From Verrucomicrobiia bacterium (GTDB taxonomy: Bacteria; Verrucomicrobiota; Verrucomicrobiia; Opitutales; Cerasicoccaceae), in assembly GCA_030425485.1 (NCBI GenBank), contig JAUIAM010000033.1, forward strand, positions 1 to 32,412: a DNA stretch of 32,412 nt, written 5' to 3'. Shown one piece after another: positions 6,036 through 7,229 of this stretch. Within the stretch, counting starts at the first letter, position 1. Each line of letters opens with the position of its first letter. The notes below the pieces were generated by a model that was not told the origin of the DNA, did no database searches, and saw nothing but the letters and a program-made list of their open reading frames with translations. The translations under genes were made by a program, and so were the position numbers.

Positions 6036-6725
6036 ATGAGGCACCGCGAGACAAAGACCTTTCAGTCGCCGGAGTCGCCTTGGATTCGGGCCTACGACGG
6101 CGGAGCGGCCAACCTTGGCATCTGGTGCGCGTTCCTGCTGCTGTTTATCGCGGCGGTGATGATTTTCGGCGCGTGCGTGGTATCGTGCGCGGAACAGACT
6201 TCCAGGACACAGTCCCGGCATAACAAGAGTAGCAGCGTAGTAGTAGCCGGGGCGGGTTGTGAGAGTCCCGCCCCGGCGTTGAATTTATGGAGCGGCGGCG
6301 TGGAAAGCCACGAAAGGTCTAACCCCGTGCTAGACACGGCAGTAGGACTAATGGCGCGCAGACACGCTCAAGAGACACGGGAATACGGCTCGGATAGTGC
6401 GAGCGGAAGCGCTGGGTACAAACAGCCACAGATGCCGCATCCGTGGATCGAGCGGCCTCTCTCGGAGTTGGTGACACTCCGAATCAACACCAGAGCCGGG
6501 GTAGCGTCCGGCCCGCTCCACCATTTCGCCGTTCGCTTCGGCGGCGGCTGCTGGTCGCTTACGTGGCCATGCTTACCCTCAGCGCTGCCGGTTGGCGCTG
6601 AGGCCACTTTCATCGCACAACACAGCCAAACCTTGCGCGGGGAGGCCGGAGGGTCGCGCCCGAGTCCACGTGTGGCAAGCGAGACGTTTTCACCTCTCGC
6701 CCGACACACAGCCGACCCCGCGTAA
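6036..6725 (+). CDS. Small membrane protein; 3' part of frame doubtful
   Basis: The frame is open for 229 codons from the ATG abutting the previous stop. The first ~60 residues look real: a hydrophilic start (MRHRETKTFQSPESPWIRAY) and one membrane segment (IWCAFLLLFIAAVMIFGACV, about residues 30-50). From about residue 65 the product is Ser/Arg/Ala/Pro-rich without domain character, and the DNA beneath it is full of perfect hairpins (6246-6709). I suspect that only the 5' part functions as a gene, or that the frame stays open by chance over an RNA gene. Confidence 0.4.
   Translation: MRHRETKTFQSPESPWIRAYDGGAANLGIWCAFLLLFIAAVMIFGACVVSCAEQTSRTQSRHNKSSSVVVAGAGCESPAPALNLWSGGVESHERSNPVLDTAVGLMARRHAQETREYGSDSASGSAGYKQPQMPHPWIERPLSELVTLRINTRAGVASGPLHHFAVRFGGGCWSLTWPCLPSALPVGAEATFIAQHSQTLRGEAGGSRPSPRVASETFSPLARHTADPA
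6246..6709 (+). ncRNA. Candidate large structured RNA (unidentified)
   Basis: Perfect stems seen directly: 6246-6256/6267-6277 (11 bp), 6299-6303/6308-6312, 6325-6329/6335-6339, 6388-6392/6400-6404, 6463-6468/6476-6481, 6495-6499/6508-6512, 6527-6531/6539-6543, 6563-6568/6602-6607 enclosing 6579-6585/6595-6601, and 6679-6684/6695-6700 inside 6670-6674/6705-6709. An imperfect stem lies at 6426-6446. A seven-base pairing, GGAGCGG (6289-6295) with CCGCTCC (6513-6519), would close the central domain, which then ends ACCA. Such density suggests RNA rather than protein. I cannot match it to GOLLD, ROOL, tmRNA, RNase P or an intron core. Strand is assumed from the operon. Confidence 0.35.
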
Positions 6726-6764
6726 GGGAAATTTCGATACACGTAACTTACTAAGAACAACACA

Positions 6765-6776
6765 ACAGGAGACAGA
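6765..6776 (+). promoter_or_regulatory. Repeated ribosome-binding leader, copy 2
   Basis: ACAGGAGACAGA lies three bases before the ATG at 6780. Upstream TTTCGATACAC resembles TTTCAATACAC before copy 3, so the similarity extends beyond the Shine-Dalgarno. This copy opens the translational block that follows the possible RNA gene. Confidence 0.8.
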
Positions 6777-6779
6777 GAG

Positions 6780-7229
6780 ATGGCTAAAGCAGACTTGGAG
6801 CTCGTGAAGCTCGTAATGAAACGCAACGACCTCAACCAGGAGGTTGTCGGAAAAATCATTGAAGACATCAATGTAGAGTTGTCCGCGCTGGCGGATGAGG
6901 AAAAGCCGCCGCCGGTCAAGAAACAGCACGTCATGCTGGTATCTGACCCCGAGGGCAAGCTGGAGGGCATGACCTTTACGGGCTGGGTGCTGCAAATCCC
7001 CGAGGAGGACAGCCCGGTTGTCGCGGTCGAGCGGCTTATTAAGTCCGGCTACGACTACAACGCCAGCCCGCGCGGTCGCCGTATCCCGGTAAAGAGCATC
7101 GGGGAAGTCTGCGAGGTGGTGACGGCGAAGTTCACCAAGCAGAACAACGTCTGGGTCAAGACCAAGGAGCCGGTACTGATCGTGTCCACTGACAACAAGC
7201 TGCCGATGGACCGCAGTGGAAAGTTTTAA
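6780..7229 (+). CDS. Hypothetical early phage protein
   Basis: The 149-residue product begins MAKADLELVKLVMKRNDLNQ, with a helical N-terminal region (1-40), a Pro/Lys linker (EEKPPPVKKQ) and a beta-rich C-terminal domain. Family not recognised. It has a strong repeated leader and sits some 1.5 kb upstream of the recombination genes, so a role in early DNA metabolism is plausible but only from position. It is a clean single-domain-size gene with no overlaps. Confidence 0.65.
   Translation: MAKADLELVKLVMKRNDLNQEVVGKIIEDINVELSALADEEKPPPVKKQHVMLVSDPEGKLEGMTFTGWVLQIPEEDSPVVAVERLIKSGYDYNASPRGRRIPVKSIGEVCEVVTAKFTKQNNVWVKTKEPVLIVSTDNKLPMDRSGKF

Follow-up and report, generated by a model that had tools for sequence, protein, structure and literature searches.

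The closest described counterparts of the RNA reported here are tRNA and the tRNA-like domain of tmRNA, which share with it an acceptor-like stem, a 2-nt linker, a hairpin of D-arm size and a 5-bp T-arm-like hairpin, together with, in a subset of the family, ACC. In tmRNA, too, a large insert is held between the arms. The family differs from both in several respects: none of the 12 members tested is recognised by the tRNA or tmRNA model of Rfam, ARAGORN calls no tRNA or tmRNA in the window (the whole stretch of DNA analysed, 32,412 nt from a bacterium of the class Verrucomicrobiia), no constant anticodon arm is present, the closing stem (P1) is often longer than 7 bp, and the loops of the T-arm-like hairpin (P3) in one of the two subtypes, type 2, are not canonical. 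Also alike are the species 1 and 2 RNAs of phage T4 (rnaC and rnaD): small, stable, 139 and 119 nt long and encoded in a tRNA cluster, they have no known function. In rnaC a T-arm (CCGGG-UUCGAAU-CCCGG) lies beside the closing stem, and GAGUAGCG occurs twice. Both T4 RNAs were tried as members and rejected: the covariance models of the family (R1 and R2, see below), with filters off, gave at best 5.0 bits (E 1.2), no block like the second helix (P2) was seen, and kinship is not shown.

GOLLD and ROOL are likewise phage-associated structured non-coding RNAs, much larger than the family RNA, and neither has a match in the window. Bacterial Y RNAs (YrlA) carry a tRNA-mimicking module, and they too lack an Rfam match there. 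Permuted tmRNA, in which the parts stand in circularly permuted order, has no match in the window either; it was found in gene-poor zones of Xanthomonas phage Rb1 (L054), Roseobacter phage DSS3P8 (L055) and Ruegeria phage RpAliso (L057), all of which have long annotation-free stretches. L055 also carries GOLLD, and L057 a recurring motif near gcgcatgc..ggcat.cttctat.

With respect to Rfam 15 the family is new, and its members occur in many unrelated phages; what it does is inferred only. The core sequences are absent from the literature searched, which left most subscription journals out of scope, and in topic searches of this literature (few subscription journals) no title or abstract opening describes the family. 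One study lists candidate RNAs near phage domains, the sequences of which lie outside the present comparison (PMC8040213). Strong covariation, occurrence in proteobacterial and cyanobacterial phages and the lack of an Rfam 15 match point to a shared, apparently unstudied phage strategy, and give a new handle on why phages retain tRNA-like stable RNAs such as T4 rnaC and rnaD.

The structured interval and the RNA within it

A preliminary description, made from sequence alone, had proposed that positions 6246-6709 hold a large structured phage non-coding RNA, perhaps of a new class, with at least ten perfect stems, inside a gene-packed region; it cited GOLLD and ROOL as known large phage RNAs without matching this one to either. 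The interval has nine non-overlapping perfect hairpins (stem of at least 5 bp, loop of 3-12 nt), a number attained by just 2 of 138 tiled 464-nt segments across the contig (mean 3.8), and none of the 138 tiles has a lower GC-corrected folding energy. The high density is thus confirmed, and the exact number varies with the rule for counting stems. Among the tiles, those starting at 465 and 697 (about 465-1160 of the window) rank first and third of 138 by GC-corrected folding energy. The fold of 6230-6780 has a z-score of -2.41, equalled by 2 of 100 dinucleotide shuffles; that of 6280-6525, the family RNA with short flanks, is weaker (z -1.83, equalled by 12 of 200 shuffles), and the case for an RNA is therefore built on comparison and not on folding energy.

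The conserved RNA, of type 2, spans 6289-6523 on the forward strand and is very likely a non-coding RNA; the existence of its family and its fold are well supported by comparative evidence, while no transcript has been seen. The 5′ strand of P1, GGAGCGG (6289-6295), is preceded by U and pairs at 7 of 7 positions with the 3′ strand CCGCUCC (6513-6519). The linker C6296-G6297 separates P1 from P2, the strands of which in the R2 alignment are GCGUG (6298-6302), followed by the loop start GAAAGC, and CACGC (6363-6367), with GCAGA just before it as in the type-2 consensus. The P2 loop is interrupted by an insert of about 51 nt (6309-6357, limits approximate), and a competing local hairpin at 6299-6312 overlaps the P2 region. 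A variable middle follows (6368-6494), in which members cannot be aligned, and then P3 (6495-6512, also placed by R2), GCCGG-GGUAGCGU-CCGGC, which is identical in Ochrobactrum phage POI1126 and Pseudomonas phage Orimi01. P3 abuts P1, giving a stack of 7 + 5 bp, and ACCA, a tRNA-like 3′ end read from the sequence, occupies 6520-6523. The whole RNA measures 235 nt, or 231 nt without ACCA; other members span 87-230 nt by the same measure.

Judged by homologues and folding, the proposed interval does not hold as one unit, nor as a giant RNA of the GOLLD or ROOL kind, since the conserved RNA accounts for 235 nt and separate structures lie in the remainder. Upstream lies an 11-bp hairpin (6246-6277); hairpins of different sequence precede other members, and a hairpin score of at least 17 is reached upstream of 12 of 58 members compared with 94 of 1650 random places. 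Downstream, the compound stem that the same description had placed at 6563-6607 is recovered as a compound hairpin at about 6563-6608, separate from the family RNA (fold of 6555-6612, z -1.84, equalled by 8 of 200 shuffles). It stands between the family RNA and a second closed structure at 6631-6727, running past 6709, with a 12-bp stem (CCUUGCGCGGGG/CCCCGCGUAAGG) and a z-score of -3.67 equalled by none of 200 shuffles. Neither R1 nor R2 matches 6631-6727, and its kinship with the family is not shown. Locus L003, a relative described below, has another closed structure in the same relative place (z -1.74), of unproven homology. Terminators of their own are not clearly enriched near members (8 of 58, compared with 87 of 1100 random places); in the Pseudomonas phages Persinger and D14H a terminator does lie close downstream.

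Members, models and covariation of the family

A search of 132 related genomes returned, besides the genome of the window, a single assembly (G004), in which a 33-nt match occurs at four places about 35.7 kb apart. The four copies of the locus (L003-L006, G004:C1:4507880-4615090) lie 35.72-35.74 kb apart on one contig, an arrangement that resembles a tandemly repeated phage genome. L003 repeats the layout of the window: an upstream hairpin of different sequence, TTTATGGAG.GGCGGCGTGGAA, with GTAGCGTCCGGCCC.CTCCACC coming next. Where the window has GGAGCGG/CCGCTCC as its closing stem, G004 has the compensated pair GGAGAGG/CCTCTCC. Read as protein, the two conserved blocks share a frame in the window, and in L003 each lies in a frame of its own.

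The wider family was opened by pattern scans of IMG/VR, with the 5′ block and with the P3 hairpin. Most contigs matched by looser 5′ patterns were non-members. The P3 pattern gave 38 contigs with 35 distinct RNAs, and in 34 of the 38 a block of the CGGCGTKGA type is present whose preceding 7 nt complement the strand after P3 at 7 of 7 positions. As for the others, the strand pairs at 6 of 7 positions in L128, L115 and L118 are members with a variant P2, and L126, with P3 and no 5′ block, is the exception in the set. BLAST against named phages added Caulobacter phage DMCA, Acidovorax phage AP1, Komagataeibacter phage phiKX1, Pseudanabaena phage Pan3, Alcaligenes phage QDWS595 and POI1126, as well as the Pseudomonas phages Orimi01, Persinger, PotUPM1 and D14H; the first such search had yielded short matches only, among them POI1126 and Orimi01, later shown to be members. 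Of the resulting 61 members, 46 come from 43 contigs of IMG/VR, 10 from named phages and 5 from assemblies of bacterial genomes; L101, L123 and L125 each hold two copies close together. Left out of this count were Komagataeibacter phage phiKX2, the match of which equals that of phiKX1 in length and score; the duplicates L116, L130, L132 and L138; and, as uncertain, L088, L094 and L055:1419-1527, Sulfitobacter phage pCB2047-A (L151), with a P2-like block and no P3, and a Sinorhizobium plasmid (L153), with an imperfect P1. L007 and L009, which lack the 5′ block, were taken as chance by eye. Within the class, the 5′ pattern occurs with up to two mismatches in 12 of 384 genomes, and with none only in G000 and G004. 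Among 40 pattern matches in genome contigs no convincing combination of closing stem and P3 was found, a result which does not show absence from genomes because only one narrow pattern was used.

The consensus runs from P1 (at least 7 bp) through CG, P2 (GCGUG-loop-CACGC), the variable middle and P3 (5 bp, 7-8 nt loop) to the second strand of P1. In the type-1 alignment (31 sequences), 98.7% of cells pair, and covariation is 0.412, where shuffling gives 0.077 and slid controls do not exceed 0.061; both sides have changed in 6 of 7 pairs of P1 and 4 of 5 of P2, and G-U pairs are present in both helices. In most rows of this alignment the search pattern had dictated P3, and what variation P3 shows is therefore due mainly to members found by other routes. 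The type-2 alignment (11 sequences), which has no sequence in common with the former, gives 0.452 compared with 0.106 when shuffled, with changes on both sides in 6 of 7 pairs of P1 and 1 of 5 of P3, P2 being invariant; this number of changed pairs was reached by 7 of 500 shuffles. Over all 61 members P1 has 42 distinct sequences and pairs at 7 of 7 positions in 57, compared with 3.2% when strands are swapped between members. Part of the 61 was chosen with the help of P1 pairing, and the fairest test of P1 is for this reason the P3-found set.

The model that places the window in the family, R2, was built from 11 phage RNAs of type 2, with the window and its relatives L003 and L008 excluded. 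It matches the window at 6289-6519 (58.8 bits, E 1.2e-11) over model positions 1-150 of 150, and L003 with 47.0 bits. It also recovers type-1 members, with E-values between 3.5e-7 and 0.036, and so joins the two types in one family. R1, built from type-1 sequences, matches the window weakly (23.9 bits, E 0.028), and on the whole genome does not report it at E 1. The window meets the family criteria, with a full-length R2 match, a 7/7 P1 and the linked loops GAAAGC..GCAGA in P2 and UAGCG in P3.

A scan of 286 class genomes with R2 gave matches at E 0.01 in 7 (stricter filters being used for scoring), of which the accepted ones are the window, the sole match in its genome, and those in G217 (60.6 bits), G003 (47.8) and G280 (38.3). 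G217 shows compensatory P2 (GCACG/CGTGC) and P3 (GCGGG/CCCGC); P1 pairs imperfectly in G003, of the same genus as the window, and the P3 stem of G280 has one mismatch. Matches of about 30 bits in G268, G200 and G184 were dropped, the hallmarks being absent by eye. R1 matched 6 of 36 genomes, missing the window, and only G004 was accepted; on 5 further genomes it gave no match. A match in G001 (L139, E 0.0137) looks coding by eye and has no block, and weak E-values are consequently not trusted.

The preliminary description had named, among its checks, an Rfam search and covariation with homologues, and had held that codon-level conservation without compensatory changes in the stems would refute it. 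Both of these were run, and the homologues show the opposite: compensatory changes in 6 of 7 pairs of P1 and no conserved frame. In the window every Rfam 15 family stays below its gathering score, the best three having 12.0-14.5 bits against cutoffs of 50-80 (80 for the match of 14.5 bits), and none matches the family RNA in the 12 members searched, matches there lying elsewhere in the loci or being weak chance ones (several below 27 bits, L149). The claim of a structured phage non-coding RNA, perhaps of a new class, is thereby supported. The rightward, domain-free frame that it had noted is also present: searches with the ORF at 6036-6725 (forward strand, 229 aa) return nothing from Pfam or PHROG at E 0.01, and where it crosses the RNA it probably does not encode a conserved protein. 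Among the 61 members, 11, 14 and 16 are open in the three respective frames compared with 12.4 expected, the frame of the window ORF being the one with 16. Comparison shows three helices, conserved P2 and P3 loops, a linkage of loops between subtypes, a middle hypervariable in length and sequence, no coding and a spread over many hosts.

Likeness to tRNA

With no match from the tRNA or tmRNA model of Rfam in any of the 12 members tested, the likeness to tRNA rests on geometry and loops. The geometry consists of the 2-nt linker, a type-1 P2 of 16 nt that corresponds to positions 10-25 with GG at 18-19 (in the usual tRNA numbering) and a 5-bp P3 abutting P1. The type-1 P3 loop, UAUCAAGC, and that of G280, UUUCGAGU, resemble the canonical T-loop motif UUCRANY plus one nucleotide, and the latter is close to a canonical T-loop even with the mismatch in its stem; the type-2 loops (NNUAGCGN) are not canonical T-loops. 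In the window, the 7-bp stem, the 2-nt linker, a D-arm-like hairpin, an abutting T-arm-like hairpin and ACCA are all present, with non-canonical loops.

The loops of P2 and P3 are linked. Among the 11 members carrying one of the 5′ scan patterns, AAAGCAGA goes with TAGCG in P3 (6/6) and the others with ATCA (5/5). Over all 61, AAAGC occurs in the 5′ block of 14 of 17 members of the TAGCG type compared with 1 of 41 of the xATC type, the exceptions thus being three of the former without AAAGC at the expected place and one of the latter with it. Of the 19 short-P1 members 10 have ACC after P1, and of the 42 long-P1 members none does; P1 exceeds the length of an acceptor stem in 42 of 61, by a rule tolerating single mismatches. 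A tRNA lies within 300 nt of 8 of 61 members (121 of 3050 random places), on the same strand in 7 of the 8, and none was detected within this distance in the other 53. In G003 (L156), a tRNA-like sequence with the T-arm GCCGGTTCGACTCCGGC, not called by ARAGORN, ends a few nucleotides before the family RNA on the minus strand. A phage contig (L088:10331-10434) has a tRNA-like RNA with a P3-type loop (UAUCAAAU) and an ACCA end, of uncertain class (R1 E 0.27), and in L008 a further stretch rich in hairpins, about 40-160 nt upstream of the member, likewise has the ATTTATGG leader, ends in CCCCCGCCA and is perhaps another tRNA-like RNA.

Proposed function and rival explanations

The main reading, to which a probability of roughly 0.5 is given, is that of a phage non-coding RNA family with a tRNA-like elbow that acts in trans as a tRNA mimic; mechanism and function are both inferred. 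The elbow would be formed by three helices, with P1 acceptor-like, P2 D-arm-like two nucleotides after P1, and P3 T-arm-like and abutting P1, and the loops of P2 and P3 may dock as the D and T loops of tRNA do. The RNA would be cut from longer transcripts, none of which has been seen, and stabilised by the tRNA-processing enzymes of the host; the ACC ends frequent among short-P1 members, the RNA of the window included, suggest such processing. For a cut by RNase P on the 5′ side of P1, the features offered by the sequence are limited to the U before P1, the stack of 7 + 5 bp and ACCA. The constant elbow may then be held by a conserved host tRNA-binding factor, such as RNase P, EF-Tu, a tRNA-cutting defence enzyme or similar, and the middle would be exchangeable, varying from phage to phage. 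A bolder version, which the evidence does not yet bring to even odds, has modular tRNA-mimic RNAs distributed across phages: a universal tRNA-binding factor of the host would capture the conserved elbow, and the elbow would present an inner RNA particular to each phage. If true, unrelated phages would be passing a modular RNA device among themselves, and the unexplained species 1 RNA of T4 may embody the same idea in a distant form.

The strongest rival, which remains possible, is a protected payload, in which the frame merely stabilises the RNA and the middle base-pairs with phage or host RNA as antisense or sponge. It is favoured by near-identical ends around different middles: L102 resembles L113 and L125 at its two ends alone, over 52 nt (98%) and 39-40 nt (100%), and L124 and L129 have in common 66 nt (95%) and 27 nt (100%), with a further 134 nt (90%) downstream. 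Against it, the middle of the window RNA (6366-6497) has no significant match in its own genome, only stretches of 14-18 nt (E 1.5-5.3), the middles of L113 and L125 align throughout at 71%, and the conserved P2 and P3 loops suggest more than protection.

A special case of mimicry is the anti-defence decoy, with the RNA serving as bait for a tRNA-cutting defence enzyme. Rescue of cells from retron-Eco7 and PrrC by phage tRNAs has been reported (PMC11555353), which makes a tRNA-mimic role plausible, and the tRNA-like ends, some tRNA-array contexts and a fast-varying inner part suited to an arms race speak for it. The decoy is nevertheless unlikely: tRNA-cutting nucleases usually read the anticodon arm, of which the family has no constant form, and no defence system is linked to any member.

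Much less probable is a cis-acting leader or riboswitch of the downstream gene. The window RNA does lie 260 nt upstream of ORF 6780 in a gene-packed rightward stretch; against this, neighbouring genes vary among loci (HNH, NinG, RecT-like, Sak, Mu-F-like, integrases, unknowns), and a convergent gene or a tRNA follows some members. Among 30 neighbouring proteins scanned, no constant function adjoins most members, recombination and replication genes being common. A DNA-level element, such as a cruciform or a packaging or attachment site in which the pairing reflects mere inverted repeats, has in its favour the integrase genes near some members and is likewise very doubtful, given the G-U pairs in P1 and P2, loops conserved on one strand and the shared strand of 7 of the 8 tRNA-adjacent members. 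The possibility that the ORF at 6036-6725 encodes a functional product, with the stems as by-products, is favoured by its open frame in the window and is all but excluded by frames open at about the chance level among members and by the lack of a Pfam or PHROG match.

The family is open to direct testing, as it is carried by cultured phages: Caulobacter phage DMCA, Pseudomonas phages Persinger, Orimi01 and D14H, Alcaligenes phage QDWS595 and Komagataeibacter phage phiKX1. By eye, tRNA-like T-arms were seen nested within the variable middle at L136:3998-4158, L119:2285-2439 and L101:4747-4885.
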